Positions 4,673-64,000 of a DNA stretch of 64,000 nt are shown here, one piece after another (the first letter of the stretch is position 1; every line of letters begins with the position of its first letter). The notes under the pieces were generated by a model. The model had not been told where the DNA came from. It saw nothing but the letters and a program-made list of their open reading frames with translations, and made no database searches. The stretch lies in NCBI RefSeq assembly GCF_028622875.1, contig NZ_CP117709.1, positions 7,691,001 to 7,755,000 on the forward strand, read 5' to 3'. The stretch is from Streptomyces sp. MMBL 11-1. GTDB lineage: Bacteria > Actinomycetota > Actinomycetes > Streptomycetales > Streptomycetaceae. Made by a program: the position numbers and the translations under genes.

Positions 4673-4676
4673 GGTC

Positions 4677-4735
4677 GTGTCCGCAAAGTCTCGTCCGGCC
4701 CGCCCGGAGGGCGGACGACGATACTTTGCGGACAC
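4677..4735. terminator. Bidirectional hairpin between convergent genes
   Basis: GTGTCCGCAAAGT (4677-4689) pairs perfectly with ACTTTGCGGACAC (4723-4735). A partly paired GC-rich interior lies between the arms. It sits 5 bases after the desD stop and faces the converging 163-residue gene, as expected for a rho-independent terminator lacking a U-tract, common in actinomycetes. Confidence 0.8.
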
Positions 4736-4813
4736 TCGCCAGGCCGACGTCGCGCGGCGTGGTGCTTCGGCGCTGCCCAGGGGAAGTACGAAGACGGTTC
4801 TGCCCGGTCGTGG

Positions 4814-5305
4814 TCACGGACTCGTGAGGAGCTGGGGCGAAAGGTTCTTGACCATGGTGTTGGTCCAGCGCATCTGCCGCAGTGTCCGAGGATGGCACGA
4901 GGCGGCCAGCTCCAGAAGGCGGGTGTCTTTCGCTGCTTGTCCGGCTTGGGCGAGCATCTCCCAGTACAGGGAGTTTCCGGCTGCGCCGAGGTGCAGTTCC
5001 CGCAGGTCCCTCAGCAGCAGAGGACCTGGTTCCGGGCGGTGGCCGACGGCTTCGGCGGTCTTCTCCCCGATGGCCGGCACCCACCCCGAAGCGGACTTCT
5101 GCGAAGGCCCGTCGAGATCCAGGCCGTAGTGGCCGGCCGTCTCCGCCAAGCGCAGGCAGTGCTCGTTCGACCACCTGGCGAGATCCCTGGCGACGTGGTG
5201 GACCTCGTGCTCGGAGCTGTGGCGTTCGCCGATCACGATGAGCGTGTTCGCCAGCTGCCGCTCTCCGTGGTGCAGCGCACGCAGGGTGAGGACGATGCCG
5301 TTCAC
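4814..5305 (-). CDS. Small helical protein coupled to the molybdopterin oxidoreductase
   Basis: A 163-residue protein with no domain I can name. It looks all-helical, with many His and Glu early (HHGERQLANTLIV, ERHSSEHEVHHVARDL), suggesting a helical bundle. The GTG start overlaps the oxidoreductase stop as GTGA, so the two are translationally coupled and probably work together, perhaps as assembly factor or partner subunit. There are no membrane segments or signal peptide. A ferritin-like fold is possible but unproven. Confidence 0.65.
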   Translation of the reverse strand: MNGIVLTLRALHHGERQLANTLIVIGERHSSEHEVHHVARDLARWSNEHCLRLAETAGHYGLDLDGPSQKSASGWVPAIGEKTAEAVGHRPEPGPLLLRDLRELHLGAAGNSLYWEMLAQAGQAAKDTRLLELAASCHPRTLRQMRWTNTMVKNLSPQLLTSP

Positions 5306-47673: not shown

Positions 47674-47675
47674 CG

Positions 47676-48650: not shown

Positions 48651-48658
48651 GGGGGTGT

Positions 48659-49612
48659 TCAGGGCCTTTCGGAACGGAGGTGGTGGCGGCCGACCGCGCG
48701 GGTACGCGGGATACCGGTGGAGGAGTCGGGTTCGACGTCGATGCGGATGCCGTACGCGTCGCTGAGCCGCTCGGGGGCGTACACCTCCGTCGGCGTGCCC
48801 GCGGCGACGATCCGCCCGCACGACAGGAGTACGACCTGGTCGGCGACGGAGGCGGCCTGGTCCAGGTCGTGCAGCACGACCCCGACGGTGACGCCGTGGG
48901 TGTCGGCGAGGTCGCGGACGAGGTCGAGGATCTCGACCTGATAGCGCAGATCGAGATAGGTGGTCGGCTCGTCGAGGAGGAGGACGTCGGTGTCCTGGGC
49001 CAGGCAGCAGGCGAACCAGACGCGCTGCAACTGCCCGCCGGAGAGGCTCTCGACCCCGCGGTCGGCGAACGCCGAGAGGTTGGTGACGGTCAGCGCGTGC
49101 TCGACCATCCGGGCGCCGTCGGGATCGGTTCCCCGGAGCCGGTCCCGGTAGGGGTGCCGGCCGAAACCGACCACGTCGCGCACGCTGAGGCCGGCCGGTG
49201 CGTTCCGGCTCTGCGCGAGGAGGGTGACACGGCGGGCGAAGTCGGAGCGCGACAGGGCGAGGGCGTCGACGGGTCCGCTCTCCTCCGCCTGGCCCGCCAC
49301 GGTCACGCTGCCGGCGCGGGCCTTGTGCAGCCGGGCCACGGCCCGCAACAGGGTGGACTTCCCACTGCCGTTCGGGCCGATGAGCGCGGTGACGCGACCG
49401 CGCGGCAGCCGGAGGTCGGCCCCGTGCACGACGTCGGTACGGTCGTACGCGATCGTCATGCCGCGGGCGTCGAGGCCGGCGGCGGTTTCGGGGGCGGGGA
49501 AGGACGCGGCCGGGCCGGGCTCGGCGCCGGGGGGCGCGGTGGTGGGACCGGCGGCGGGCGCGGAGCGCCGACGTGGCGGCGGGCCTTCTCGGTCGAGGGC
49601 AGAAGCGATCAC
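48659..49612 (-). CDS. Siderophore ABC transporter ATPase (FecE/FhuC-type)
   Basis: A 317-residue ATPase. LIGPNGSGKSTLLRAV (Walker A), SLSGGQLQRVWFA (signature), DVLLLDEPTTYLDLRYQ (Walker B and D-loop) and VLHDLDQAA (H-loop) are intact. An unusual ~45-residue Pro/Ala-rich extension precedes the ABC domain. The GTG at 49612 lies only five bases from the iron box, so a later start or leaderless message is possible. First gene of the iron-importer operon. Confidence 0.88.
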   Translation of the reverse strand: MIASALDREGPPPRRRSAPAAGPTTAPPGAEPGPAASFPAPETAAGLDARGMTIAYDRTDVVHGADLRLPRGRVTALIGPNGSGKSTLLRAVARLHKARAGSVTVAGQAEESGPVDALALSRSDFARRVTLLAQSRNAPAGLSVRDVVGFGRHPYRDRLRGTDPDGARMVEHALTVTNLSAFADRGVESLSGGQLQRVWFACCLAQDTDVLLLDEPTTYLDLRYQVEILDLVRDLADTHGVTVGVVLHDLDQAASVADQVVLLSCGRIVAAGTPTEVYAPERLSDAYGIRIDVEPDSSTGIPRTRAVGRHHLRSERP

Positions 49613-50658: not shown

Positions 50659-50907
50659 CTACCTGCCCGCCGCGGAGCCGGAGTACGGCAGCAGGGCCAT
50701 CTCTCGGGCGTTCTTGATGGCCGCGGTCATCTGACGCTGCTGCTGGGCGCTGATCCGGGTGACCCGCCGGCTGCGGATCTTCCCCCGGTCGGAGATGAAC
50801 CGCCGCAGCAGATCGGTGTCCTTGTAGTCGACATACGTGATTCCGGCGGCGTCCAAGGGGTTCGGTCGGGGCTTGAGCGGCTTGCGGGGGTCCTGCTGAC
50901 GTGCCAT
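50659..50907 (-). CDS. rpsR: Ribosomal protein bS18, zinc-independent paralogue
   Basis: An 82-residue bS18: [26 protein letters not shown] is characteristic and [23 protein letters not shown] completes it. It lacks Cys, matching the C-minus paralogues made during zinc starvation. GAGGAA precedes the ATG at 50907. It follows the COG0523 gene in a minus operon under the Zur box at 52652-52672. The 230 bases between it and the SSI gene hold no gene. Confidence 0.93.
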
Positions 50908-51008
50908 GGGACTTCCTCGTGCTCGGTGTGTCGGGAATGTTCGGCGGGCGGTCGGTGGGCCGTGGCCGCAGGGGGGCGGGGCCGGGGTGCGGGCGGTACG
51001 GAGCGGGG

Positions 51009-52163
51009 TCAGTGGACCGGGTCGAGGAGCGCGTCGAACGCGGCGGGCAGGCTCTTCCACGCCTCCCGGCCGGAGCCGTACTCCTCGTCCGTGAGCAGGC
51101 AGGAGTCCAGCAGGCCGGTCAGACCGTCGCGGTCGAGGCCGGGGGAGACGAAGACCAGGTGCTGGCAGCAGTCCCCGTGCTCCGGGTGCCAGTCCAGTGC
51201 GGCGGCCGCCCGCCGGTAGGGCGGCACCATGGACCAGGCGGCGTCCGGGAGTGAGGCGAGCCAGGGGCCGGTGTCCTCCACGCACAGCGCGCCGCCCGCG
51301 GCGTCCCAGGAGAGCAGGGTGTCGGGCCGGTCCGCGAGCCAGAACCGGCCGCGGCTGCGGGCGGCCGCGCAGCTCAGGTCCTCCAGCGCGTCGAGGAGGC
51401 GTTCGGGGTGGAAGGGCCGGTGCCGCCGCCAGACGAGCGTGCCCACCCCGGCCTCGTCCGCCTCCTGCGGCAGCAGCGCGCAGGCCGGGTGCTGGCCCGC
51501 GTCCGCCGCCTCCACGTCGAATCCCGCGAAGGCGAGCCGGGCCAACTCGGCGGAACCGGCCCCGGCCTGGCGGGCCGTCGGGTGCAGCTGCCGGATCAGG
51601 GCGTGGTCCTCGTCGTCGGCCGCCGGGCTCGGCGTCACGGCCAGGACGGGCGCGTACTCCATCTGCCGGGCCCACGTGTCGCCGATGGTCCGCCGGTCGC
51701 CGGGCGCCGCCGCGAGGCCGGCCTCGGCCAGATCGTCGCCGTTGGAAAGGCAGGGCAGGACGAGGGTGGGGTCGACCGCCGTGAACACGTTGGTGACCTC
51801 GGCGGCGGTGGTGTGCGCGGCGATCACCTCCGCCATGGACTTCGGCTCGACGGAGTCCCAGAGCTCCAGGACGGCGAGGCGGGTCCGCCCGTCCCCCGCG
51901 AGGCGTTCGAGTTCGGGGACGAGGTCCTCGCGCAGCGCGCAGCAGGCGCATTCGTTCACCAGCGGCGTCTCGCCGGAGGCCAGTTCACCGCCGGCGTCCC
52001 GCAGGGAGCGACGTACCGTCCCGCCGGTGGCCGTGGACAGGTCGTGGTGCAGCGCGACGCTGTGCGGGACATCCCGCAGCAGCCCTTCCACCACGTCGCG
52101 GCGTGCTTCGGAGTGCAGGCCGCAGACGATGACGACGGGCAGTTTCGTACGGTGCTCGCTCAC
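51009..52163 (-). CDS. COG0523/CobW-like putative metal chaperone with degenerate P-loop
   Basis: A 384-residue member of the G3E GTPase (COG0523) group linked to zinc homeostasis. [20 protein letters not shown] carries the CxCC metal motif, [19 protein letters not shown] the switch region, and the C-terminal CobW-like domain begins near [16 protein letters not shown]. The Walker A that should follow VVIVCG is [13 protein letters not shown], with no GKS/T, so nucleotide binding is doubtful. The GTG start overlaps the bL31 stop. Confidence 0.85.
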
Positions 52164-52414
52164 CGGGCCTCACCGCGTCCGTAGCGGCGTTCGAAGCGCT
52201 CGACGCGTCCGGCGGTGTCCAGAACGCGGGCGGTGCCGGTGTAGAAGGGGTGGCTCGCGGAGGAGATCTCCACGTCGACCACCGGGTAGGTGTTGCCGTC
52301 CTCCCACGCGACGGTGCGGTCGCTGGTCATGGTGGAGCGGGTGAGGAACGCGAAGTCGGCGGCCTTGTCGCGGAAGACGACGGGGCCGTAGGAGGGGTGG
52401 ATTCCGGGCTTCAT
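52160..52414 (-). CDS. rpmE: Ribosomal protein bL31 type B (zinc-independent)
   Basis: An 84-residue bL31[21 protein letters not shown] and [25 protein letters not shown] are diagnostic, and the CxxC of type A is absent. The ATG at 52414 lies within the operon between bL33 and the COG0523 gene. It would replace the zinc-binding L31 when zinc is scarce. Confidence 0.95.
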
Positions 52415-52473
52415 GACGATCTCCTGGGGGGTCGGGTCTGTGGTGTGTGCGGGTGGGCCGGACCGACGGGGCC

Positions 52474-52638
52474 TCAGCGCTCCTCGCGGAAGTCGACATG
52501 GCGGCGGGCGACCGGGTCGTACTTCCGCAGCACCATCCGGTCGGGGTCGTTGCGCCGGTTCTTGCGGGTGACATAGGTGTAGCCGGTCCCCGCGGTGGAG
52601 CGGAGCTTGATGACCGGGCGTACTTCGTTGCGAGCCAT
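52474..52638 (-). CDS. rpmG: Ribosomal protein bL33, zinc-independent paralogue
   Basis: A 54-residue bL33 beginning [20 protein letters not shown] and ending [14 protein letters not shown], with [14 protein letters not shown] between. It has no Cys, unlike the zinc-binding form. It is the first gene of the minus-strand zinc-starvation ribosomal operon, 13 bases from the Zur-like operator. Confidence 0.94.
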
Positions 52639-52651
52639 GGGCGCTACTATA

Positions 52652-52672
52652 TGGCAATGGTTTCCATTTTCA
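52652..52672. promoter_or_regulatory. Zur-like operator between divergent ribosomal paralogue genes
   Basis: The minus strand reads TGAAAATGGAAACCATTGCCA with the palindromic core ATGGAAACCAT. The core matches those at 54683 and 58888 (ATGRWAAYCAT). It lies between rpmG (minus) and rpmB (plus), genes known to be Zur targets in streptomycetes, so one site would control both directions. Confidence 0.85.
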
Positions 52673-52709
52673 ATAATGGATGCGTCGAAGGAGAGGCAGG
52701 TAACCTTTC

Positions 52710-52946
52710 ATGTCCGCCCACTGCCAACTGACCGGCTCGAAGCCGGGATTCGGCAACAACATCTCCCACTCGCACCGCCGGACGTCCCGCCGGTTCGACC
52801 CGAATGTCCAGCGCAAGCGGTACTGGCTGCCCGGCGAGGGGCGGTACGTGCGCCTCACGCTGAGTGCTCGGGCTATCAAGACCGTCGACAGCATCGGCAT
52901 CGAGGCCGCGGTCGCGCGCATCCGCGCGCGGGGAGGGAAGGTCTGA
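52710..52946 (+). CDS. rpmB: Ribosomal protein bL28, zinc-independent paralogue
   Basis: A 78-residue bL28: [25 protein letters not shown] is diagnostic. Only one Cys is present instead of the four of the zinc form. First gene of the plus half of the divergent Zur-controlled pair; its stop shares a base with the rpsN ATG (TGATG). Confidence 0.94.
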
Positions 52947-53251
52947 TGGCGAAGAAGAGCAAGATCGCGCGGAACGACCGGCGCCGGGAGACCGTCGACC
53001 GCTACGCCGCCCGCAGGGCCGAGCTGAAGGAGATCATCCGTCGGCCCGGCACGCCGGAGCGTGAACGCGTCGCGGCGGTCGAGGAGTTGCGGCGTCAGCC
53101 GCGCGACGCCAGTGCCACGCGGGTCCGCAATCGCGACAGCGTCGACGGCAGGCCGCGGGGGTACCTGCGCAGGTTCGGGCTCTCCCGGGTCCGGATGCGT
53201 GAGCAGGCCCACGCCGGATTCCTCCCGGGGGTGACCAAGTCCTCCTGGTGA
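52946..53251 (+). CDS. rpsN: Ribosomal protein bS14, zinc-independent paralogue
   Basis: A 101-residue bS14 of the long, Cys-free type: [20 protein letters not shown] and [23 protein letters not shown] are diagnostic. Coupled to rpmB. It completes the zinc-sparing ribosomal set. Confidence 0.95.
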
Positions 53252-53321: not shown

Positions 53322-54599
53322 TCAGCGGCCGACCGGGTCGGCGTGCGCCCCGTCCCCGGGAGCGAGGAGGGCGAGGTGGCCGCCGTCGTCCAGGGGCGTC
53401 GGGACGGTCAGGGTCGTGAGCAGGTCCGCCCGGTCCGCGTCGAAGACGTGGACCTCGCCGTGGCCTCCCCGGCTGACCGCCACCAGGCCCGCGCCGGGGG
53501 AGGCGGCGACGGCCCGCCGCTGCACACCGTCCCAGGGGGTTCCGCCGCGCCGGGGCGCACCGGACATGGCGGGCAGGGGTAGGCGCGCGCCGACCTCCGG
53601 GCGGCCTCCGGCTACCGGGGGCGCGGTGAGCAGGACGAGCTCGTCGCCGTCCGGGTGGACGCGGGTGTACGCGATGTGGCGTGCCGTCACCGCGAGCCGG
53701 AACACCAGACCGGGGCCCAGCTCAAGTCGGCCCGTGGCACCCGTGTCGAGGTGGTGCCACCAGGCGTCGTTGGACCAGTCCGGCCACTGTCCGGGGTCGC
53801 CCGGCCCGCCGCGCACGCAGGACCAGAGCATGCGTCGCACGGGGTCGAGCCGCAGGTAGTAGCCGCGTCCGCCGGAGCGCCCGTCGGCGGACCAGGACAG
53901 GGGGGCCTCGGGCGTGAGGCCGTCCCCCTCCCGTCGTACGCGATGCACCCCCGAGCCCGCGGCGGCGAACGCCCGGCCGGTGAGCGGGTCATGGGCGTCG
54001 CCGTGCCCGTCGTCGTCCGGCAGGGCGATCCGCCGGAGCGGCGTCGCCGGAGGGCACGCGGGGGCCGAACGCATCAGGTCGTGGTGCCGGTGGACCAGCA
54101 GCTCGCCCGGCTCCCGGTGGCGCAGCACCACGAGGGGGGACCGCCCGCCGAGGACCGTGACCCCCGGCTCGCCGGTCCGCCCCCGTACGCGTACGGCGAC
54201 GGCCCCGTCGGGTGCGTCGAGGTCGACGGCCGTCAGGAGCCCGGTCCAGGCCTCCTCGTTGCGGCCGAGACCGGTGGTCACCGCGAGGTGCCGCCCTCCC
54301 GGGTCCGCCGCCAGGTGCTCGGCGGGGACCGCGACCGGTATCCGCCGCCGGACCAGCGGCCGGCCGGCGCCGGGTCCGTAGGGGTCGAGGACCAGCAGCT
54401 CGCCCGCCCGGTCGTCCACGCAGGCGGTGAGGTCGCCCGGCAGGGGGAGGAAGCCGGCGTGCTCGGCGAGGTGCCGGTGGGTCAGCTCCGCGCGCTCCGT
54501 GCCGTCCGGGAGGTCCAACAGGCTGATCCGGCCGGCGACATGATCGGAGATCAGCAGGCGCGGCGGCGCCTGGGGCGAGGGGTTTGGGGTCTGCGGCAT
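53322..54599 (-). CDS. Beta-propeller-like protein adjoining a Zur-like site
   Basis: A 425-residue protein with repeated strand patterns of a YVTN/WD-like propeller, for example PRLLISDHVAGRISLLDLPDG, GELLVLDPYGPG, RHLAVTTGLG and AVSRGGHGEVHVFDADRADLLTTLTVP (short pieces cited). There is no signal peptide. AGGAG lies six bases before the ATG at 54599. It diverges from the metallophore importer and shares its Zur-like site, so it is probably a zinc-starvation protein. Its His-rich segments (HRHHDL, DDDGHGDAHD) could bind metal. No function is known to me. Confidence 0.75.
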   Translation of the reverse strand: MPQTPNPSPQAPPRLLISDHVAGRISLLDLPDGTERAELTHRHLAEHAGFLPLPGDLTACVDDRAGELLVLDPYGPGAGRPLVRRRIPVAVPAEHLAADPGGRHLAVTTGLGRNEEAWTGLLTAVDLDAPDGAVAVRVRGRTGEPGVTVLGGRSPLVVLRHREPGELLVHRHHDLMRSAPACPPATPLRRIALPDDDGHGDAHDPLTGRAFAAAGSGVHRVRREGDGLTPEAPLSWSADGRSGGRGYYLRLDPVRRMLWSCVRGGPGDPGQWPDWSNDAWWHHLDTGATGRLELGPGLVFRLAVTARHIAYTRVHPDGDELVLLTAPPVAGGRPEVGARLPLPAMSGAPRRGGTPWDGVQRRAVAASPGAGLVAVSRGGHGEVHVFDADRADLLTTLTVPTPLDDGGHLALLAPGDGAHADPVGR

Positions 54600-54677
54600 G
54601 GCGAACTCCTGAGCTCGGCGGGGTCGTAGGGGTGATGGGGGCCGGTGGGGTCCAGCTGTGCCTCCCGCCCACTTTAT

Positions 54678-54698
54678 TGGAAATGATAATCATGTGTA
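54678..54698. promoter_or_regulatory. Zur-like operator between the propeller and importer genes
   Basis: TGGAAATGATAATCATGTGTA with the perfect core ATGATAATCAT (54683-54693) in an otherwise GC-rich gap. It matches the Zur consensus TGAAAATGATNATCATTTTCA well and lies 92 bases before the binding-protein ATG and 79 from the propeller start. Confidence 0.88.
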
Positions 54699-54789
54699 TG
54701 GTTCCGGTCTGTGGCGGGGATCGCTCCCGGGGCTCCGCCGCCGTCTCTGCCGCACCCCGGGACCGCACAGGAACGTTGAGGGACCGTCG

Positions 54790-55776
54790 ATGCCACGAAC
54801 CGCGCTGAGAGTCCGCCGCTGGGCCGCGATCGCCGTACTGGGAGGCCTGCTGGCCGGCTGCGGGACCGGGGAGGCCGACACCGCGAAGGACGCCGTCGCT
54901 CCCGGGAACGGGACCGCGGCCCGTACGAGCACCGACGTGCGGCCCATCGAGGCCGCCACCCGGATCACCGACGCCCAGGGCGTCACGGTCTCCCTGCCGA
55001 AGCCGCCGCAGAAGATCGTCTGCCTGGTCGCCCTCTGCGACGACATCCTCGTCGAGCTGGGTATGACCCCGGCCGCCACCAACTCCCAGGTGCTGGCGCA
55101 CCCGAGGTTCCTGGGCGAGGAGAAGGCGGCGAGGATACCGGTCGTGCCCGGCGGCTTCCTCAGCCCCGAGGTCGAGGCGATCCTGTCCCACCGGCCCGAC
55201 CTGGTGATCGGTCTCAAGGACACGCACGGCAAGCTGGCCCCCGCGCTGAAGGGCGCCACGACGTTCTGGCCGGTCCAGCCCGGATCCTGGCAGGACAGCG
55301 TCGGCTACCTGCGGGACCTGGCCGCGCTCACCGGCCGCACCGAGCAGGGCGAGCAGGCGGAGAAGGCCTTCCGTGCCCGCCTGGCACAGGCGGAGAAGAG
55401 GAAGAGCGACAAGACCGCGCTGATCATCTACGGCAGCGACGAGAACTTCGGCGTGGCCACCCCGGAGACCGATGTGGCGGCCGGACTGTTCCCGAAGATC
55501 TCCCACTACCCATGGAAGAGCCGGGGCGTCGACGGCAGCTACAGCCTGGAGGAGATCCTCGCCCGTGACGTCGACGTCCTCTTCGTGGAGACCCTCTCGT
55601 TCGGTGCGCCGGACGGCAAGCTGTCCGACAAGCTGGCCGACAACCCGCTCTGGTCGCGGATCCCGGCCGTGAAGAACGGCAAGGTCATCGAGGTCGACTC
55701 CGAGGTGTGGGCCAAGGGGCGCGGCACCCGGTCCCTGGGGGTCGTCCTCGACGAGGCGACGGCCGCACTGCGGTGA
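54790..55776 (+). CDS. Metallophore/zinc-type ABC transporter binding lipoprotein (FecB-like)
   Basis: A 328-residue class III binding protein. The signal peptide ends in the lipobox LLAGCG. ITDAQGVTVSLPKPPQKIVCLVALCDDILVELGM is the first-lobe entry, with two Cys in place of the usual residues; SHRPDLVIGLKD, DVDVLFVETLSF and KNGKVIEVDSEVWAKGRG follow. FecB-like proteins carry metal-chelator complexes, and the Zur-like site upstream suggests a zinc-linked ligand. Coupled by GTGA to the first permease. Confidence 0.88.
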   Translation: MPRTALRVRRWAAIAVLGGLLAGCGTGEADTAKDAVAPGNGTAARTSTDVRPIEAATRITDAQGVTVSLPKPPQKIVCLVALCDDILVELGMTPAATNSQVLAHPRFLGEEKAARIPVVPGGFLSPEVEAILSHRPDLVIGLKDTHGKLAPALKGATTFWPVQPGSWQDSVGYLRDLAALTGRTEQGEQAEKAFRARLAQAEKRKSDKTALIIYGSDENFGVATPETDVAAGLFPKISHYPWKSRGVDGSYSLEEILARDVDVLFVETLSFGAPDGKLSDKLADNPLWSRIPAVKNGKVIEVDSEVWAKGRGTRSLGVVLDEATAALR

Positions 55777-56834
55777 GGCGCCCACCCGTGGCGCCGCTCT
55801 GCCTGGGCGCGGTGGCCCTGGCGAGCGCGGTCTGCGCGCTCAGCCTCGGCACGCCGTACGTCCCGCCCGCCACGCTCCCGGCCACGCTGGGGGACGACGG
55901 GCTGGCGGGGCTCGTGGTCACCGAACTGCGCCTGCCCCGCATGGTGCTGGCGCTGATCGCCGGGGCCTGTCTGGGCGCGGCGGGCCTCGTCCTCCAGGAG
56001 GCCCTGCGCAACCCGCTGGCCGTGCCCGAGATGCTGGGAGTCTCCTCCGGGGCGGCCCTGGGCGTTGCCGCACCGCTGGTCCTGGCCCTGTCCGTGCCCC
56101 TCGGGCTCCAGCCGTTCCTCGCCCTCGCCGGGGCGGCGTTCGGCGGTCTGCTCACCCTGGTCGCCGCAGGATTCGGACGGAGCCCCTCGGCCGTCCTGCT
56201 GACCGGAGCGGCCGTCGCCGCCGCGCTCCAGGCGGGCCTGCTGGTGCTCATGGTCATGGCCGACCAGCTCGACCTCCAGCTCATCTACCGCTATCTGCTG
56301 GGCAGTCTGTCCGCCCGCACCTGGGACGACGTCACCGGCCTGCTGCCCTGGCTCGTCGTGGCCGTCCCGGCTCTGGTGCTGTGCGTGCCGGTGCTCGGAG
56401 TGCTGCGCCTCGGCGACGACGACGCCCGGGCGCTGGGCGTAAGGGTCGAACGCGCGCGCGTGGCCGCGCTGGGCATCGCCGTCGTTCTGATCGCCCCCGT
56501 CGTCGCGGTCTGCGGGCCGGTGGCCTGGGTCGGCTTCCTCGCCCCCCATCTCGCCCGCCGCCTTCGCCCGGACGGCGGCGCGGCCGGCTGGCTCGTCCGG
56601 TCCGCCGTGTGCGGCGCGATCGTCGTGCTGTGCGCCGATCAGCCGGCCCGGCTGGCGCTCGCCCCGGTCGAGACGCCTGTCGGCGCCTGGACCGCCCTGG
56701 TCGGGGTGCCGGTCGGGGTCGTTCTGCTCAAGCGCGGCGGCCGGCCCGCCCGGGACCGGGGGCCCGTGGCCCCGCCCGCCCCGGGGGCCCTGTCGGACCT
56801 CGCCGCTCCCGTCCTGCGGAAGGCGGAACGATGA
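55773..56834 (+). CDS. FecCD-type ABC permease 1
   Basis: A 353-residue permease with about nine hydrophobic segments. LRLPRMVLALIAGACLGAAGLVLQ, NPLAVPEMLGVSSGAALG and GPVAWVGFLAPHLARRL are the BtuC/FecCD hallmarks. Its GTG overlaps the binding-protein stop and its end overlaps permease 2 (ATGA). Likely one half of a heterodimeric importer. Confidence 0.9.
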   Translation: MRRPPVAPLCLGAVALASAVCALSLGTPYVPPATLPATLGDDGLAGLVVTELRLPRMVLALIAGACLGAAGLVLQEALRNPLAVPEMLGVSSGAALGVAAPLVLALSVPLGLQPFLALAGAAFGGLLTLVAAGFGRSPSAVLLTGAAVAAALQAGLLVLMVMADQLDLQLIYRYLLGSLSARTWDDVTGLLPWLVVAVPALVLCVPVLGVLRLGDDDARALGVRVERARVAALGIAVVLIAPVVAVCGPVAWVGFLAPHLARRLRPDGGAAGWLVRSAVCGAIVVLCADQPARLALAPVETPVGAWTALVGVPVGVVLLKRGGRPARDRGPVAPPAPGALSDLAAPVLRKAER

Positions 56835-57889
56835 CGCTCATCGACACCGTGCCCGGACCGGCCCGTCGGGCCCTGCGCGCGCCGGGGGTCCGGCTGGGCG
56901 GCCTGGCACTGCTCGTCGCCGCGGTGGCCTGCGCCGACCTGTTCGCCGGCCGGGGTGTCACCCCCGAAGGCGTACGGACCGTGCTGCTCGGGGGCGGCGA
57001 CGACCCGACCGCCGAGCACATCGTGCTCCAACTGCGGCTGCCCCGGCTGCTGGTGGCGCTGGTCGCCGGAGCCTGCCTCGGGGTGGCCGGGCTCGTGCTC
57101 CAGTCGGCCCTGCGCAATCCGCTGGCCGGGCCCGAGGTCACCGGGGTCACTCCCGGCGCGGTGCTCGGCGCGGTCGCCGCGACCGGCCTCGGCCTCGCGG
57201 GCTGGGAATCCCCCACCGCCGTGGTCGTGGCCGCCTGCCTCGGCGGCTTCGCCGGAGCGGGGCTGCTGTGGCTGCTCGCCGGGCGGGACCGCGGCGACCC
57301 GGAACAGACCGCGGTCTACGGGGTCCTCGTCTCGGCGGTGCTCGCCGGGCTCACCGCGGTCGTCCTCCTGGTGGCACCCGGCGAACTCGGCAGCGTCGTC
57401 CAGTGGTTGATCGGTTCCACCGAGGGCCGGGTGTGGCAGCACTGGAATCTGCTCTGGCCGTGGGCCGCCTTCTGGGGCGCGGCGGCCTGGCTGCTCGCCG
57501 GGCCGCTGACCCTGTTGCGCTGCGGCGACGAACAGGCCTCCGCCGCGGGCCTGGCCACCGGCCGGGGCCGGGGCGCGGCGCTCGTCTGCGCCGTGGCGCT
57601 GACGGCCGGCGCCGTGTCGGCCGTGGGAGCGCTCGGCTTCGTGGGGCTGCTGGTGCCCCATCTGGCGCTGGCCGTCTTCGGGGCCGACCTGCGCATCACC
57701 CTTCCGGGTGCCGCGCTGCTCGGCGGGGCGGTGGTGTGCGGGGCGGACGCCGCTGCCCAAGTGCTGTCCCGGCTGCTGGCCACCGCGCTCGACGCGGACC
57801 GGCTGACCCTTCCGGTCGGAGCCCTGACCACGTTTGTCGGGGCGACGCTGCTGATGGTCGTGGCGCGGCGACGGGCGGACGAGCGATGA
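56831..57889 (+). CDS. FecCD-type ABC permease 2
   Basis: A 352-residue permease with the same signature: LRLPRLLVALVAGACLGVAGLVLQ, NPLAGPEVTGVTPGAVLG and ALGFVGLLVPHLAL. Resembles permease 1 and forms the other half of the channel. The stop overlaps the ATG of a small GI-repeat frame. Confidence 0.9.
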   Translation: MTLIDTVPGPARRALRAPGVRLGGLALLVAAVACADLFAGRGVTPEGVRTVLLGGGDDPTAEHIVLQLRLPRLLVALVAGACLGVAGLVLQSALRNPLAGPEVTGVTPGAVLGAVAATGLGLAGWESPTAVVVAACLGGFAGAGLLWLLAGRDRGDPEQTAVYGVLVSAVLAGLTAVVLLVAPGELGSVVQWLIGSTEGRVWQHWNLLWPWAAFWGAAAWLLAGPLTLLRCGDEQASAAGLATGRGRGAALVCAVALTAGAVSAVGALGFVGLLVPHLALAVFGADLRITLPGAALLGGAVVCGADAAAQVLSRLLATALDADRLTLPVGALTTFVGATLLMVVARRRADER

Positions 57890-58017
57890 CGGAGAGCGGT
57901 ACGCGGACGGGACACGTCGGCATCGGCATCGGCACCGACGTCGGCACCGGCATCGGCATCGACGTTGACGGAAGTGGAGGACAGCGGATGAGGAGGGTGG
58001 CATGCCGGAAGGCCTGA
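57886..58017 (+). repeat. Hexamer-repeat spacer with a possible 43-residue frame
   Basis: Repeats of GGCATC and GGCACC (57918-57962) lie between permease 2 and the ATPase gene. The same DNA carries a frame starting at an ATGA overlap with the permease stop, encoding MTESGTRTGHVGIGIGTDVG and ending ACRKA; it runs 16 bases into the ATPase gene. Whether it is translated is unclear; it may simply keep translation coupled. Confidence 0.4.
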
Positions 58018-58907
58018 CCGGACAAGTGGAATCGAGCCCGGCGGAGGCGGCCGGGCCGGAAGCGGAACCGTACGTCATGCCCGGCCCGGAGGTCGTCCGG
58101 GCGGAGGGGCTGGCCTTCGGCTACCCCGGACGGATGGTTCTGCGCGGGGTGGACCTGAGTGTCCGGGCCGGCGAGCTGGTCGCCCTGATCGGGCTGAACG
58201 GCTGCGGCAAGAGCACCTTCCTCAAGCTGGCCGCCGGGCTGCTCGCCCCGAGCGGCGGGCGCGTCCTGCTCGGGGGCGACGACGTGGCGCGGCTGCCCCG
58301 CCGCACCGCCGCCCGGCGCGTCGCCCTGCTCCATCAGTCGGCGCCCGCCGTACCGGGACTGACCGTGCGGCAGCTGGTGCGCCAGGGGCGCTATGCCGCC
58401 CGGGGGCCGCTCGGGATGCTGCGGGAGGGCGACGACGAGGTGACCTCGCGGGCGCTCGCGGACGTCGGCGTCACCGCCTGGGCCGACCGGCCCGTGGACG
58501 CGCTGTCCGGAGGCGAACGCCAGCGGGTCCGGCTGGCCATGGCGCTGGCCCAGGACGCCCGCGTGCTCTTCCTCGACGAGCCGACCACCTATCTCGATCT
58601 CCGGCACCAGCTGGAGGTGCTCCAGACGGTCGTACGGCTGCGCGCGGAACGCCGTCTGACGGTGGTGATGGTGCTGCACGACCTCAACCACGCCGCGCGG
58701 TTCGCCGATCGGATCGTCGCCCTGCGTGAGGGGCGCGTCGCCGCCGACGGGCCTCCGGCCGAGGTGGTCACCCGGCGTCTGCTGGCCGAAGTCCTCGGCG
58801 TGGAGGGCCGGGTGGGGATCGACAGCGAGGGCGGCTGGCCGGTCTGTTACCCAGATCACCCTCTCGACCCGCTCCAGCTATTGCGGAATGAAAATCATAT
58901 TCATTAG
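58002..58907 (+). CDS. ABC transporter ATPase (FecE/FhuC-type) of the metallophore importer
   Basis: A 301-residue ATPase: LIGLNGCGKSTFLKLA (Walker A), DALSGGERQRVRLAMA (signature), RVLFLDEPTTYLDLRHQ (Walker B) and VLHDLNHAA (H-loop). GAGGAGG precedes the ATG. The last codons, encoding NENHIH and the stop, lie inside the next Zur-like operator. Confidence 0.92.
   Translation: MPEGLTGQVESSPAEAAGPEAEPYVMPGPEVVRAEGLAFGYPGRMVLRGVDLSVRAGELVALIGLNGCGKSTFLKLAAGLLAPSGGRVLLGGDDVARLPRRTAARRVALLHQSAPAVPGLTVRQLVRQGRYAARGPLGMLREGDDEVTSRALADVGVTAWADRPVDALSGGERQRVRLAMALAQDARVLFLDEPTTYLDLRHQLEVLQTVVRLRAERRLTVVMVLHDLNHAARFADRIVALREGRVAADGPPAEVVTRRLLAEVLGVEGRVGIDSEGGWPVCYPDHPLDPLQLLRNENHIH
58883..58903 (+). 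promoter_or_regulatory. Zur-like operator overlapping the ATPase 3' end, before the RiPP precursor
   Basis: GCGGAATGAAAATCATATTCA with core ATGAAAATCAT (58888-58898), extended as AATGAAAATCATATTCATT. It overlaps the ATPase stop codon and lies 75 bases before the precursor ATG. An internal promoter for the precursor under zinc control is inferred. Confidence 0.82.
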
Positions 58908-58977
58908 TGTCTGTGCTGCGGCACGCACCGACGCCGCGAACGACACTCATCCGAACGACCGAATGGAGACTCAACTC

Positions 58978-59112
58978 ATGGAGCAGAACAAGGTGTTCAG
59001 CCCGATCGCCGACCAGGGCCAGCTCGCTCACCTCTCCGCCACCCACTCGAACGCCCTCGTCGAGAACCCCTTCGACGACGCCGTCGAGGCCGACGCCCCG
59101 GCCGAGAAGTAA
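58978..59112 (+). CDS. Candidate RiPP precursor peptide, 44 residues
   Basis: A small gene with GGAG eight or so bases before its ATG; an in-frame ATG at 58963 would add METQL. The peptide starts MEQNKVFSPIADQGQLAHL, continues with SATHSNALVENPFDD and ends in an acidic, Ala-rich tail (AVEADAPAEK). It has no Cys; Ser8, Ser20, Thr22 and Ser24 are the only heterocyclisable residues, and His18/His23 sit beside them. It is followed by a terminator-like hairpin and then ocin-ThiF-like, peptidase, YcaO and SagB genes, the standard layout of an azole-modified peptide locus. Precursor identity is an inference from position, size and company. Confidence 0.75.
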   Translation: MEQNKVFSPIADQGQLAHLSATHSNALVENPFDDAVEADAPAEK

Positions 59113-59118
59113 GCGGCT

Positions 59119-59193
59119 CCTGCCGCTGACGGCAGGTTTCCCGCGTAGCGCGGGGGCGGGCCCGCCCGGTGACCTCCCGGGCGGGCCCGCCCC
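59119..59193 (+). terminator. Attenuating hairpins between precursor and modification genes
   Basis: A small hairpin CCTGCCG/CGGCAGG (59119-59125/59130-59136) followed by TTT, then a perfect 17-bp stem, GGGGCGGGCCCGCCCGG (59153-59169) with its complement at 59177-59193 and a 7-base loop. Such a partial terminator is typical between a RiPP precursor and its enzymes, giving more precursor mRNA than enzyme mRNA. Confidence 0.85.
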
Positions 59194-59239
59194 GTTCAGC
59201 CCCGAACGTCCCTTCCCGCTTCCAGCTCCGGAGGAATCC

Positions 59240-60223
59240 GTGACCCGCAGTCGACTCGCTCCCGGCACCGGGATCGTCACCGTCCCCGGTGGCGCCCCCG
59301 TGCTCCGGACCTCCGGAGGGGAGTTCCTGCGCATCGACACCGGTGGCGTCGCCGGCGAGGACCTGGTGCGTCGGCTGGCGGGGGAGGAGGCGCGGGACGA
59401 GGGCGCCCACGCGGCCGAACTCACCCGACTCGTCGAGGCGTTCGAGCAAGGCGGGCACGCGGTCTCCGCGCCGGCCCGGGCCCCGCTCGAAGGCCGTACC
59501 GTCCATGTCCTCGGCGACCCCGTGCTCACCGTGCCGGTGGCGCGCTGCGCCGGGGCCGAGGGTGCAGAGGTCCACCGGATCACCCCGGACGGCGTGGCGG
59601 AGCTCGCCCGGGCGATCCCGGACCGCGGCGCCGAAGGGCGCGTCGCCGTGGTGTGGTGCCTCGACTCGCCCGTGCCCGAGGGTCTCTGGGACGCGGCGGA
59701 CCGGCTGCCCGGGCGGGGCATCGCCTGGCTGCGCTGCCACCGTGAGGGCGCCCACAGCTGGACCGAACCCCTTGCCGCGGCCCCGGGAGACGTCACCTCC
59801 CGCCACATCCGGCTCCGCAGGCTCGCGGCCACCCCCGCCCACCGTGAACTCGCCGCGTACTGGGCCGGACACCGGACGCCCGACACCGGGCCGCATCCCA
59901 CCGAAGCCTCGGCCGCCCTGATCGCCGCTCTCCTCACCGCCGATCTGATCGCCTGGGCCGAAGCCGAAGCCGAAGCCGAAGCCGAAGCAGGAGTGGCAGC
60001 CGAAGCGGAAGCCGGAGCCGGAGTTGGAGCAGGAGTGGCAGCCGGAGCCGGGGGAGGCCGGGCGACCGTTCTCCCGGTGCGCCGACGGCTGCGCCGCATC
60101 GACCTGCGCGATCTCACCCTCACCGAGCACCCCGTGCTCCCCGTCCCGGACGTCGCGCCTCTGCCCGCCCCGACGCCGGTGCGGGCGCGCACCGGGGCCC
60201 GGACCGCCGAGGCACGCCCGTGA
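59240..60223 (+). CDS. Ocin-ThiF-like / TOMM cyclodehydratase partner protein
   Basis: A 327-residue protein that best fits the RiPP cyclodehydratase C-protein group: an N-terminal ~90 residues of possible leader-binding fold, a Rossmann-like stretch GRTVHVLGDPVLTVPVARC, and a segment RGIAWLRCHREGAHSWTEPL followed by RRLAATPAHRELAAYW, comparable to the GP-xxPGxTxC-R motif of these proteins. The zinc Cys of other family members are not evident. Residues ~240-275 are a low-complexity Glu-Ala then Gly-Ala run from short DNA repeats at 59957-60057. The GTG has GGAGG upstream. It would present the precursor to YcaO. Confidence 0.62.
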   Translation: MTRSRLAPGTGIVTVPGGAPVLRTSGGEFLRIDTGGVAGEDLVRRLAGEEARDEGAHAAELTRLVEAFEQGGHAVSAPARAPLEGRTVHVLGDPVLTVPVARCAGAEGAEVHRITPDGVAELARAIPDRGAEGRVAVVWCLDSPVPEGLWDAADRLPGRGIAWLRCHREGAHSWTEPLAAAPGDVTSRHIRLRRLAATPAHRELAAYWAGHRTPDTGPHPTEASAALIAALLTADLIAWAEAEAEAEAEAGVAAEAEAGAGVGAGVAAGAGGGRATVLPVRRRLRRIDLRDLTLTEHPVLPVPDVAPLPAPTPVRARTGARTAEARP

Positions 60224-61842
60224 ACACCCGTACGGTGGACGTCCCCACGCCGGACGGAGCCGTACTCGCCACCGACGTATGCCTCCCGGACGGAACCCGC
60301 GCTCTCCCCGCCGTCCTGATCAGAACCCCTTACGGGCGCGACGCCCACCGCGCCGAGCTGCGCGGCTGGGCGGCGCACGGTTTCGCCGCCGTCGCCCAGG
60401 ACGTGCGCGGCCGCCACGGCTCACCGGGGGAGTGGCACCCCTACCGGGGCCACGAGAGGACGGACGGCGCGGCCACCGTCGCGTGGATGCGCGCACAGGC
60501 ATGGAGCAACGGGGAGGTCGTCGCCGTCGGCGCTTCCTACGCCGCGCACTGCGCCCTCGTCACCGCACTCGCCACCCCTGACGCCGCCGGGTGCGACGGC
60601 GTCCCCGACGCGGTCATCGCCGCCGTCCCCGCGCTCGGGCTCGCCGAGACGGCACGCGAGCCCGGGGGCCCCGAGCGACTGTGGGCCCGGGCCGGCTGGT
60701 GGGCGGCCCACGGCGACCGTCGCGACTCCGACCCGGACGCGTTGGCCCGCGCCCTGGCGGACGACCCCCGCCTGCTCGAACATCTCCCTGTTGCCCGCCT
60801 CGCCGAGCGGCTGGCCGAGAGCCTGGGACGCGAACTGCCCTCCTGGTCCGGGCTCTGGGCCGCCCGAGGGCGGGGCCGGCTGGCCGCGCTGGGCTCCAAC
60901 TGCCGCCTCCCACTGCTCGCCGTCGGTGGCACCCGTGACCCGTTCGCCGACGACACCGTGGCCCTGTGGCGCGCCTGGGGCGGACCGTCCCGCCTGCTGC
61001 TCGGGCCCTGGGGCCACCGCCTCACCGCCGACCCGGCCGCACCGGCCCGCGCACGCGTCAACCTCGGTGCGCTGTACGTACGGTGGGCCCGCGCGGCGCT
61101 CGCCGGGCGTCTGGAACCGACGCGGCACGGCGTCATCGCCCTCGGCGACAGCGGTCGCTGGCACAGCACCCGGGTGCGAAGCACTCCCCCGCCGGCCCTG
61201 CCCGCCACCCCGCGGGAGGGACCGGAGTGGCGGGCAGGGCCGGCGGGGGAGGACCGGCCTGACCGGCCGGAGGCGGAGTCCCGCTGGGCCTTCGGCTCGC
61301 CCACCGGTCTACGGCTGCTCCACGGAGCCGAGTTCAGCGCCGACCCGGACCGCCCCGTACGCTCCGACGACCTCGCCGTCCCGGCCGGCGGCGACCGCGC
61401 CGACCGCTGTCTGCTCCTCTCGCCGCCGCTGCCCGGCCCGCTCGACCTGGCGGGAGCCGCCGTCGCCCGGATCAACGTCACGGCCGACGCGCCCTGTGCC
61501 GACTGGGCCGTACGCCTGACCGCTCTCGACCCGTCCGGCCACGCGGACCCGCTCGCCTTCGGCATCGTCCGGCGCACCGACCCGCCAGGTGAGGCCGCCG
61601 ACATCACCGTGCCGCTCGGCACGCTGGGCCGCCGGCTGCCCGCCGGGACCCGGTTGCGCGCGGAGATCGCCGGACACCACTTTCCCGCCCACGCCCGGAA
61701 CCCGCACACCGGGGAGGACCCGGTCACCGCCACCCGGCTCGCCCCGTCCCGCCGCACCGTGAACCCCCGGGGCAGCGTCCTCCACCTGCCCGTCGTCGCC
61801 CGACGCCGCTACGTCGAGCCCGCACCGGAGATATGCCGTTGA
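60220..61842 (+). CDS. CocE/NonD (peptidase S15)-family hydrolase
   Basis: A 540-residue alpha/beta hydrolase: LIRTPYGRDAHRAEL, FAAVAQDVRGRHGSPGEWHPYRGHE, then VVAVGASYAAHC with the nucleophile Ser, GTRDPFADD with the Asp and GPWGHRLTADP with the His. The C-terminal jelly-roll typical of X-Pro dipeptidyl peptidase/cocaine-esterase enzymes follows. The start overlaps the previous stop. In this context leader or tail removal from the modified peptide is plausible, though S15 enzymes also act as esterases. Confidence 0.85.
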   Translation: MNTRTVDVPTPDGAVLATDVCLPDGTRALPAVLIRTPYGRDAHRAELRGWAAHGFAAVAQDVRGRHGSPGEWHPYRGHERTDGAATVAWMRAQAWSNGEVVAVGASYAAHCALVTALATPDAAGCDGVPDAVIAAVPALGLAETAREPGGPERLWARAGWWAAHGDRRDSDPDALARALADDPRLLEHLPVARLAERLAESLGRELPSWSGLWAARGRGRLAALGSNCRLPLLAVGGTRDPFADDTVALWRAWGGPSRLLLGPWGHRLTADPAAPARARVNLGALYVRWARAALAGRLEPTRHGVIALGDSGRWHSTRVRSTPPPALPATPREGPEWRAGPAGEDRPDRPEAESRWAFGSPTGLRLLHGAEFSADPDRPVRSDDLAVPAGGDRADRCLLLSPPLPGPLDLAGAAVARINVTADAPCADWAVRLTALDPSGHADPLAFGIVRRTDPPGEAADITVPLGTLGRRLPAGTRLRAEIAGHHFPAHARNPHTGEDPVTATRLAPSRRTVNPRGSVLHLPVVARRRYVEPAPEICR

Positions 61843-63206
61843 CCAGCGTCCTGCCCATCGAAGCACTCGTCGATCCCGTCAGCGGGATCATCCGTGACGT
61901 CGCGCCCGTCGAGCACCCCGCCGGTGCGCCGCCCCGCTACACCGCGATGACCGCCGACGTCGCCGACGCCCGCCGCCTCGGCGCCTGGCCCGCCGACCGC
62001 GTCTCGCTCGGCACCACGTTCGGCGACCCCCGGGGCGCGTGGATCGCAGCGGTGGCCGAGGCCGTCGAGCGCTACTGCGGCAACCGTCTCCCGCCGCCCG
62101 GCCACGCCCAGGCGCCGCGTCGGGCCACCGCCGCCGAACTGACCGCCGAGGGCCACCGGGTCTACGGGCCGGGCGCTCTGCCGGCCTACGCCCCCTGGCA
62201 GTTGGTCCGGCCGCGATTCCCGTACGCCGAACTCACCCCCGACACACCGGCGCTGTGGACCCGGGCCGCCGAGGGCGGTCGCCCCTGCTGGGCCCCCGTC
62301 GCGCTGACCCACCTCAACTGGCGGCAGGGCGAACTGCGTTCGCTGCCCCGTACCCACCACCTCAACTACGCGGGCATCGCCACCGGGCAGGGCCTCGACG
62401 ACGCCGTCGAGCGCGGGCTCCTCGAAGTCGTGGAGCGGGACGCCCTGGAGCTGTGGTGGCACCTGGACGGGCCCACCCGGGGCATCGACCCGGCGACCGT
62501 CCCCGGGCTCACCGAGGACCTGGCCGGCTGCGGGCTCGACGTGCACATCGTGGAGATGCCCTCCGAGTTCGCCCCCTGCGTGGCGGCCCTCGTGCACGAC
62601 CCCGGACGCGGCATCCACGCGGCCGGGTTCGCCTGCCGGTACGACCCGGCGGAGGCGGCCCGCAAGGCCGTGCTGGAGGCCGTGCACACCTGGGTGTTCA
62701 CCCAGGGCGCGGTGGACGCCGACGGCTGGGTGTACCGGGCGGTCGAAGCCGGGATGCTCGCCCGCGGCCTCTACCTCGACCACCGCGCCGACCGGCGCTA
62801 TCTCGACGACTGCGGGCCCGAGTTCGCCGCCGTCCGGGACCTCGGGGCCCATGTCCAGGTCTGGCTGGACGACCGGATGGCCCCGCTCGCCCGCCGCTTC
62901 ACCGAACCCGCCCTCGGCACGGTCCCGGTCACCGCGATCGATCCCGGCAGCCGTACCGCGCTCGACGCGGCGCTCGCCGCCGGGGGGCACCGGGTGATCA
63001 CCGCGGACCTCACCACGGAGGACGTCGCCGAGACACCACTGCGCGTCGCCCGCGTGCTGGTCTCCGGACTGATCCCCAACGCACCGGCGGCCTTCGGCTA
63101 CTTCGGCTGCCCGCGGTTCGCGGACGCCGCGCTCGCACGGGGCTGGCGCACCCGACCGCCCACCGCGCCGGGGGACTTCACCCTGGCCCCGCCCCCGCAC
63201 ATGTGA
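61833..63206 (+). CDS. YcaO cyclodehydratase (azoline-forming, D-protein)
   Basis: A 457-residue YcaO-domain protein. RGAWIAAVAEAVERYCG, DDAVERGLLEVVERDALELWW and AEAARKAVLEAVHTWVF hold the conserved Glu residues that bind Mg-ATP, and the C terminus ends in a Pro-rich tail (LAPPPHM) like the PxPxP end of azoline-forming YcaO enzymes. It uses ATP to cyclise Ser, Thr or Cys onto the preceding carbonyl, or to form related backbone changes. ATG 61833 overlaps the previous gene by 10 bases; TTG 61839 with better GGAG spacing is an alternative. Confidence 0.92.
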   Translation: MPLTSVLPIEALVDPVSGIIRDVAPVEHPAGAPPRYTAMTADVADARRLGAWPADRVSLGTTFGDPRGAWIAAVAEAVERYCGNRLPPPGHAQAPRRATAAELTAEGHRVYGPGALPAYAPWQLVRPRFPYAELTPDTPALWTRAAEGGRPCWAPVALTHLNWRQGELRSLPRTHHLNYAGIATGQGLDDAVERGLLEVVERDALELWWHLDGPTRGIDPATVPGLTEDLAGCGLDVHIVEMPSEFAPCVAALVHDPGRGIHAAGFACRYDPAEAARKAVLEAVHTWVFTQGAVDADGWVYRAVEAGMLARGLYLDHRADRRYLDDCGPEFAAVRDLGAHVQVWLDDRMAPLARRFTEPALGTVPVTAIDPGSRTALDAALAAGGHRVITADLTTEDVAETPLRVARVLVSGLIPNAPAAFGYFGCPRFADAALARGWRTRPPTAPGDFTLAPPPHM

Positions 63207-63220
63207 AGGAGCGCGCCGCC

Positions 63221-64000
63221 ATGCCCGACACCCCGGCCCGGACCGCCGCCCCCGATCCCGGGACGCACCCCGCGTCCGGCCTGCTGCGCCGGGCCCTCGC
63301 GGACGCCCGCTCCTCGCGCGCGCCGGGCCTCGCCCCCTACGTGCCCGAGCGCCCGTTCCCCTGGAGCGGGCCCGGGCTGCCGTTGACCGGGGTCGCGTTC
63401 CGGTCCGGGGCGGGTCCGGGGACCGGGGGCCGGGCCGCGATCGACCTGGACCGCGTCCTGCGCCTCTCCCTGGCCGCACCCGCCGGAACACCGGGCCGAC
63501 TGCGGCCCGTTCCCTCGGCGGGAGCCCTGCACCCGGTGCGCGCCCACCTCCTGATCGGGCCGCGGTGCTCACTGCCGCCCGGTCGCTACGCCTACGACCC
63601 GCGCGCCCACCGCGCCCACCCACGCGGCCCGGCCCCCGACGGCGCACCCCCGGGCGGGCTCGTCGTCCTCACCGTGGCCGCGTCCCGCACCGTCGTGCAC
63701 TACGGCCATCGGGCCTGGCCGCTCCTCCTGCTGGACACGGGCCACGCCGCCGCGGCCCTGGCACTGGCCGGGCCCCCGGCCGCCGACGTACGGGTCTGCC
63801 TCGACGCGGACGCCGACCTTCTCTCCGCCGCCGCCGGACTGCCCGCCGCGCCGGACTGGCCGGACACATGGCCCGGCACCGAGCCGGAACTGGCCCTCGC
63901 GGCAGTCAGGTTGACCCCTGCCGGCGTGACCGGCGACGACCTCGGGACACTGGCCGTCTGGGCCTGCCCGCCCCGCGCCGGAACCCCGTCGCCGCAACCC
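63221..64000 (+). CDS. SagB-type FMN dehydrogenase (N-terminal part, runs off the window)
   Basis: AAGGAG precedes the ATG. The frame reads to the edge as a SagB/nitroreductase-type azoline oxidase: RPVPSAGALHPVRAHLL is the FMN-binding SAGxxxP-type loop, PGRYAYDPRAHRAHP follows, and VVHYGHRAWPLLLLDTGHAAAALALA matches the conserved R-Y/W-x-x-L-D-x-GH region. It would oxidise azolines to azoles. Further tailoring or export genes may lie beyond the edge. Confidence 0.85.
   Translation, partial: MPDTPARTAAPDPGTHPASGLLRRALADARSSRAPGLAPYVPERPFPWSGPGLPLTGVAFRSGAGPGTGGRAAIDLDRVLRLSLAAPAGTPGRLRPVPSAGALHPVRAHLLIGPRCSLPPGRYAYDPRAHRAHPRGPAPDGAPPGGLVVLTVAASRTVVHYGHRAWPLLLLDTGHAAAALALAGPPAADVRVCLDADADLLSAAAGLPAAPDWPDTWPGTEPELALAAVRLTPAGVTGDDLGTLAVWACPPRAGTPSPQP

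Follow-up and report, generated by a model that had tools for sequence, protein, structure and literature searches.

Predicted Zur control of a streptamidine-family gene cluster in Streptomyces and its possible role in zinc acquisition

A 64-kb stretch of the 8.5-Mb genome of Streptomyces sp. MMBL 11-1 (G000:C1:7691001-7755000, hereafter the window) was annotated and compared with related loci. It contains a gene cluster for a ribosomally synthesized and post-translationally modified peptide (RiPP), which is an ordinary member of the published streptamidine (ami) family. This ami locus is very probably under the control of the repressor Zur, and the best explanation overall, which we hold with roughly even confidence, is that the cluster is directly repressed by Zur at two promoters and that its most likely job is zinc acquisition. 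Streptamidine was described from S. albidoflavus as the hexapeptide HLSATH carrying an N-terminal amidine ring and no azole (Russell et al., 2021, PMC8442711). The same paper lists 237 precursors in 57 genera with two motif types, A and B, and assigns the ami family to the YcaO-linked peptide network that it finds to be most abundant in actinobacteria (PMC8442711). Its authors suspected metal import from the FecBCDE-like genes and left the function open; in the main text the word Zur occurs 0 times and zinc once (PMC8442711). Zur regulation of the motif-A family appears to be unreported in the literature that we searched, and its support from sequence is good. A conserved Zur promoter at motif-A loci offers a clue to both the metal and the relevant condition, strict zinc limitation; the claim covers motif-A loci, and motif B, as published for Frankia, Rhodococcus, and Clavibacter, stands outside it.

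All Zur scans used, unchanged, the 15-bp motif tGaNNatSatNNtCa (TGANNATSATNNTCA) that was obtained by chromatin immunoprecipitation on microarrays (ChIP-chip) in S. coelicolor (Choi et al., 2017, PMC5472717). The original prediction, made from the letters of the window, had placed Zur-like sites before both an importer and a precursor gene, and both were recovered with this motif: the site upstream of the precursor gene amiA (TGAAAATCATATTCA) is the sole exact match in the window, and the site between amiX and amiF1 (TGGAAATGATAATCA) deviates at one position (Table 1). Two further one-mismatch sites lie at 37276 and 39201. When an ad hoc Zur-like 21-mer with up to three mismatches was used instead, three places were found in the window against none in 100 shuffles. 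The genome as a whole has three exact matches to the motif, one of them in the amiA promoter. The second (L126, G000:C1:574637) is located 73 nt before an open reading frame (ORF) for an oligopeptide/nickel-type binding protein resembling NikA/Opp5A (200.4 bits, cutoff 600), and this locus is a candidate second Zur-controlled importer. The third falls on the start codon of an ORF read by eye as ribosomal protein L9 and is probably there by chance. With one mismatch allowed, 118 places were found genome-wide compared with 17 for the reversed pattern, so that single one-mismatch sites mean little alone.

Eighty amiA loci were fetched by the peptide patterns THSNALVE and F[TS]PIA[ED][QP]GQ, with one genome per species; they were kept from 94 confirmed amiA places, and the choice took no account of Zur boxes. 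In the 150 nt ahead of amiA, the best match to the ChIP motif had no mismatch in 53 loci, one in 18, two in five, and three in four. A match with at most one mismatch is thus present upstream of amiA in 71/80 loci, compared with 90 of 4760 other ORFs (19 with none and 71 with one), and a Markov control of 4000 sequences yielded none without mismatch and nine with one. A Zur-like palindrome agreeing at 12 or more of 15 positions was found within 250 nt at every one of the 80 loci; among 2250 stretches drawn at random from these loci, 37 reached that level. Because these loci are related by descent, the counts do not represent 80 independent events; after clustering at 80% YcaO identity, 14 of 17 lineages retained a box with at most one mismatch. 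The best boxes of 82 promoters (those of the 80 loci plus one each from the window and a plasmid of Rhodococcus) comprise 32 different sequences. A further 30 Streptomyces loci, overlapping in species with the 80, gave 26 with at most one mismatch, and the importer promoter, which is common to the amiX-like gene, has such a box no more than 250 nt ahead of amiF1 in 57/60 loci. Iron regulation of the FecB-type importer found no support: in a scan of one strand that covered the amiA promoter but not the importer promoter, the best match to an iron-type IdeR/DmdR box within 150 nt of amiA has at least 8 mismatches in 19 positions in all 80 loci.

The position of the amiA box is that of a repressor site. 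The predicted amiA promoter and its Zur box overlap the 3' end of the amiF4 ATPase ORF, and the box lies in the spacer between the two promoter elements. In 76 of the 82 promoters a −10-like hexamer TANNNT begins at a distance of 1-2 nt behind the box; a −35 element of the TTG- or TTnA-type was identified 17-19 nt before the hexamer in 55 of them and none was found in 27. The distance from box to amiA is 89 nt in the window and 87 nt in S. albidoflavus NRRL B-1271 (L078). A repressor bound in this placement would be expected to block RNA polymerase, in contrast to the activated zitB promoter, where the box is upstream of −35 (PMC5472717). This geometry also bears on published genetics, in which AmiB, AmiC, AmiD, AmiE, and AmiF1-F4 were needed for product and deletion of amiF1-F4 stopped production (PMC8442711). 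In the window the last bases of amiF4 lie within the predicted amiA promoter, so that this loss may be polar and reflect a removed promoter.

Linkage of importer and precursor, for which the original prediction had proposed a genome search, was confirmed: FecB is present in 76/81 loci (61 + 15), and in L033, L058, L085, L101, and L105 the sequence ends before the expected place. Within the family, the expectation that homologous YcaO loci keep both Zur site and importer was nearly borne out, the one copy without a box being L122, considered below. Three arrangements were distinguished. In Streptomyces and Streptosporangiaceae (first group) the importer precedes amiA and shares its strand. A second group, made up of Nocardioides, Nocardiopsis, Microbacteriaceae, Brachybacterium, Pseudonocardiaceae, an Arthrobacter metagenome-assembled genome, and the Rhodococcus plasmid, has it upstream on the opposite strand. 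In a third, comprising Cryobacterium, Paenarthrobacter, Paeniglutamicibacter, and an Arthrobacter (L098, L099, L103, L104), it follows the exporters. The amiX-like gene and the importer are divergently oriented in the first group; in the other groups its divergent neighbour is amiA. In the YcaO tree the third group forms a supported clade (99/96), and support for the clade drawn for the second group is lower (82/73). The permease is encoded by two genes in the first group and by one in the second, and the binding proteins of these groups, compared in one pair, aligned only over residues 2-139 of 328 with 34% identity. The tree further joins Streptosporangiaceae with Streptomyces sp. SCUT-3 (100/99) and Brachybacterium with Pseudonocardiaceae (97/92), which suggests that the ami locus moves between families with its box retained. 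A prolyl oligopeptidase gene (PF00326; e.g., L104:6872-8836, minus strand) is present in 17/17 second- and third-group loci, where L101 and L105 were assigned to the third group by kinship, and in 0/64 of the first group; its product could cut an imported peptide at NPF and release metal. A precursor profile built from 14 sequences was searched against 200 genomes from the family to which the window belongs and matched 12 of them. One ami locus (L124) is carried by the Rhodococcus rhodochrous plasmid pNit (NZ_CP032676.1:350079-375440); its amiA is annotated as a streptamidine family RiPP, it has a Zur motif with one mismatch, and prolyl oligopeptidase, importer, and exporters are present with no AmiB match.

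The precursor places the cluster within the known family. In the window, residues 18-23 read HLSATH, the published core, and are followed by SNALVENPF. The peptide is neither undescribed nor an unknown azole product, as the precursor belongs to the streptamidine family (NF040714, 70.0 bits, cutoff 40) and the published product is the amidine HLSATH (PMC8442711). A new azole RiPP was rejected on the same match, and a linear azol(in)e peptide does not agree with a precursor that has no Cys and no Ser/Thr/Cys-rich core. Over the 80 loci, the non-x positions of Q15-L16-x-H18-x-S20-x-x-H23-S-N-A-L-V-E-N-P-F32 are invariant, partly by construction inside the search-pattern stretches. Both His18 and His23 are fixed in 80/80; His23 falls inside the pattern THSNALVE, whereas His18, Ser20, and Asn30-Pro31-Phe32 are outside it yet invariant. 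In one precursor beyond the 80, from genome G701, His replaces Gln15. Across 18 codons of 82 sequences, 15 third, five first, and one second positions are variable. Nocardiopsis precursors (L102, L100, L108) contain two complete tandem units, the second starting directly after NPFD of the first. The stretch after HLSATH is conserved as well and must have one of two roles, as a recognition element, which Russell et al. propose for ALV (PMC8442711), or as a portion of a larger product.

If the cluster serves zinc acquisition, it might operate as follows. Zinc-loaded Zur would sit on two promoters, that of amiX and the importer and that of amiA together with, by position, the genes behind it. As zinc falls, the importer, the peptide, its maturation enzymes, and the exporters would be made alongside the zinc-free ribosomal paralogues encoded nearby. 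AmiB and AmiD, with AmiE, would modify the peptide, AmiC would cut off the leader, and AmiT1-T2 would export the matured form. A form of the peptide, probably zinc-loaded via the two conserved histidines and the amidine, would then be returned by AmiF1-F4. Zur binding, zinc binding, export, and re-import are steps that we infer. The full proposal of a zinc-scavenging peptide that is secreted and re-imported is tentative, falling somewhat short of an even chance; more doubtful again is the version in which the streptamidine family as such would be a Zur-controlled system for a ribosomal zincophore, with the hexapeptide isolated so far being a fragment or the metal-free end product of the working molecule.

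Several observations count against a role in zinc acquisition. As given in the main text of the discovery paper, liquid chromatography-mass spectrometry (LC-MS) detected no metal binding by streptamidine, zinc included, an amiD mutant had no phenotype under metal starvation, and substantial amounts of product came from the authors' cultures as well as from S. coelicolor as a heterologous host (PMC8442711). The importer might serve another metallophore or a vitamin. Nine of the 80 amiA boxes have two or three mismatches, and L122, an ami copy outside the 80-locus set, has no Zur motif (best match four mismatches within 150 nt). Its genome, G701, holds three ami copies, and the other two (L145 and L146) have boxes with 0 and 1 mismatch, 83 nt before amiA. 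The amiX match of L122 begins only at residue 50, so that the region of the shared promoter is apparently missing from this copy. The published negatives, as they stand in the main text, concern the hexapeptide, whereas AmiE is essential even though that product carries no oxidation; the zinc level of the cultures is not given in the text consulted, and a phenotype could be hidden by other zinc importers. The original prediction is partly supported: Zur control and importer linkage have strong support, and the zincophore itself stays a hypothesis, the published zinc-binding and metal-starvation assays being negative (PMC8442711).

Zur control of amiA would also suit a signal or antagonist of zinc starvation, exported to act on kin or competitors, with the importer reading or recycling it, and the discoverers themselves consider signalling or development as a role (PMC8442711). 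We regard this as unlikely, because the discovery paper reports no antibacterial or antifungal activity of streptamidine (PMC8442711), because the peptide is not diversified between genera as weapons tend to be (partly an effect of the search pattern), and because no dedicated immunity gene was noticed, no search having been aimed at one. Less likely still, the importer and the RiPP might be separate arms of a Zur regulon, adjacent through shared control, with the importer carrying another zincophore or cobalamin. FecB-type systems carry many chelates and vitamins, and cobalamin could let a B12 methionine synthase replace the zinc-dependent form. The dissimilarity of the two compared binding proteins would also agree with separate arms. 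The linkage, however, is kept in three arrangements and in several families of Actinobacteria, the locus shows signs of having spread horizontally, and deletion of amiF1-F4 abolished production (PMC8442711).

Improbable, and slightly more so than separate arms, is an intracellular role of the product as zinc buffer, chaperone ligand, or cofactor, with the transporters serving maturation or recycling. Such a role would accommodate the findings that AmiE is essential even though the known product carries no oxidation and that amiF1-F4 are required (PMC8442711). It is harder to reconcile with the CydDC-like exporter pair and with the substantially lowered product after deletion of amiT1-T2, which are needed for full yield (PMC8442711), and the importer effect may, as noted, be polar. 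That the boxes answer another Fur-family protein is very improbable: the genome has four FUR-domain genes, but the motif is the Zur ChIP motif itself (PMC5472717) and the neighbours are Zur-type ribosomal paralogues. Zinc acquisition under Zur, the preferred reading, would account for the joint inheritance of peptide, exporter, and importer, and if true it would provide the first ribosomally made zinc metallophore in the literature consulted (open-access PubMed Central articles and a few preprints, no supplements).

Zur-controlled metallophore clusters have been described for coelibactin in S. coelicolor and ethylenediamine-disuccinate (EDDS) in Amycolatopsis japonicum (PMC6103462, PMC12161575). 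Coelibactin is a putative non-ribosomal peptide, unlike the ribosomal streptamidine. EDDS is an aminopolycarboxylate with no ribosomal peptide origin. Another parallel is methanobactin, a copper-binding RiPP that is made under metal limitation, exported, and re-imported; it differs from the ami system in its metal, its enzymes, and its uptake route, and metal binding is proven for methanobactin while it is putative for the ami peptide. An amidine ring made by a YcaO enzyme, as in streptamidine, is also found in klebsazolicin and bottromycin; klebsazolicin blocks the ribosome, whereas streptamidine does not (PMC8442711).

Table 1. Features of the ami locus and its surroundings, in window numbering unless a locus is named.
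Feature	Position	Strand	Evidence or remark
S18, CobW-C protein, L31 type B, L33, L28, S14 (zinc-starvation-type neighbours)	50659..53251		context, outside ami
amiX-position gene	53322..54599	-	conserved 425-aa protein; divergent from importer, Zur site common to both
amiX/amiF1 intergenic Zur site	54678..54692		1 mismatch to ChIP motif
AmiF1, FecB-type substrate-binding lipoprotein	54790..55776	+	PF01497 3.1e-20
AmiF2, FecCD permease	55773..56834	+	PF01032 6.1e-68
AmiF3, FecCD permease	56831..57889	+	PF01032 1.1e-66
AmiF4, FecE-type ATPase	58002..58907	+	PF00005 1.1e-31
Predicted amiA promoter	58881..58910	+	TTGCGG 58881-58886, 18-nt spacer with Zur site, TAGTGT 58905-58910; sequence match
amiA Zur site	58889..58903		exact ChIP-motif match
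amiA, 44-aa streptamidine precursor	58978..59112	+	NF040714
amiB-position protein, 327 aa	59240..60223	+	no Pfam/NCBIfam match
AmiC, S15/CocE hydrolase	60220..61842	+	PF02129 2.4e-37; TIGR00976 5.3e-51, above cutoff
AmiD, YcaO protein	61833..63206	+	PF02624 4.7e-38
AmiE, SagB-like dehydrogenase, 510 aa	63221..64000, past the window to 64753-equivalent	+	
CydD/CydC-like ABC exporters, AmiT1-T2 position	L003:1750-3486 and 3486-5315		after AmiE

One ami unit spans 53322 to 64000 and runs onward to about 68.3 kb (window numbering, L003). The cluster of S. albidoflavus J1074 has the same gene set and order as the locus in the window, with no anatomical difference seen, and that of NRRL B-1271 has the same order and a YcaO protein 83% identical; relative to the S. 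albidoflavus cluster as published, the addition made here is Zur regulation. The unit also includes a conserved minus-strand gene beyond those first listed, which by position is probably the published amiX. Its product gave no match in Pfam, NCBIfam, or PDB by sequence search, and it reads by eye, from its repeat pattern and with no tool result, as a beta-propeller. An amiX homologue was found in 77/81 loci, and in the other four (L033, L052, L058, L085) the contig starts in or just before the importer genes.

The FecBCCE-type ATP-binding cassette (ABC) importer and the 44-aa precursor stood as first described. Nearest to AmiF1 by sequence among PDB entries are siderophore-binding proteins, and an alignment of 32 rows has a mean column identity of 72%. 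Among the maturation genes, the S15 hydrolase and the YcaO protein are backed by Pfam or TIGR matches, and the SagB assignment of AmiE is weaker, with 41.8 bits against TIGR03605 (cutoff 78.4) for the in-window part of the gene. The label ocin-ThiF-like for the amiB-position protein has no Pfam or NCBIfam support; published Phyre2 results do match AmiB to TruD and support a RiPP recognition element (RRE)/E1-like fold (PMC8442711), and by analogy the 327-aa protein may be a leader-binding, E1-like partner. Its counterparts in first-group loci share 44-96% identity with it across the aligned part, and tblastn located it in 71/81 loci, with four (L041, L076, L100, L101) ending too early and six (L067, L087, L104, L110, L112, L124) giving no match although sequence is available. 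A probable role of AmiC is leader removal. The AmiD YcaO is present in 70/80 related loci, the other ten giving no match in the sequence covered; in a tree of amiA-bearing loci only, with no outgroup, the window YcaO nests among the others and groups with those of S. griseus and S. globisporus. The exporters can only be called CydD- and CydC-like, scoring 375.6 bits against a cutoff of 435 for CydD and 300.5 bits against 329.05 for CydC. Matches to exporters and importer ATPase in 79-80 of 81 loci include cross-matches among ABC ATPases and carry no weight as counts. Of the ami transporters, the FecBCDE importer and two ABC transporters are present.

The Zur-type ribosomal paralogues were rightly noted as adjoining the cluster, and a CobW-C protein gene lies with them at 50662-53248; the same kinds of paralogues and a COG0523 gene are listed in the S. 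coelicolor Zur regulon (PMC6103462). On their far side, a second FecB/FecCD/FecE-type importer is encoded at 45526-49612 on the minus strand, near which no Zur motif with one or fewer mismatches was found.

More distant relatives were also encountered. A 35% YcaO relative (L121) has no Zur motif at one or fewer mismatches and no recognisable amiA-like peptide. On a Streptomyces plasmid, a YcaO gene with 33% identity (L125) is accompanied by major facilitator superfamily (MFS) transporters with no annotated importer adjoining, and its best Zur match within 300 nt upstream has three mismatches. In L120 (G664:C55, 2765-13142, minus strand), whose YcaO is named Solirubrobacteraceae, a zinc GTPase, a YcaO enzyme, exporters, and an importer stand in one row. 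The GTPase resembles the zinc chaperone ZigA (579.1 bits, cutoff 600) and is preceded by a Zur-like palindrome with two mismatches; the YcaO enzyme has 761 aa, with a long N-terminal extension and a C-terminal YcaO domain; and two ABC exporters, read from ORFs, are present with a FecB-type importer. A histidine-rich ORF of 37 residues in the same locus contains NHHSHSSAL and has no family match. A locus of this type occurs in one of 249 genomes of its class. As a lead from one locus, L120 is possibly a distant ami cousin within a wider clan reaching Solirubrobacteraceae; at least nine further proteins, including some from Frankia and Actinomadura, resemble its enzyme.

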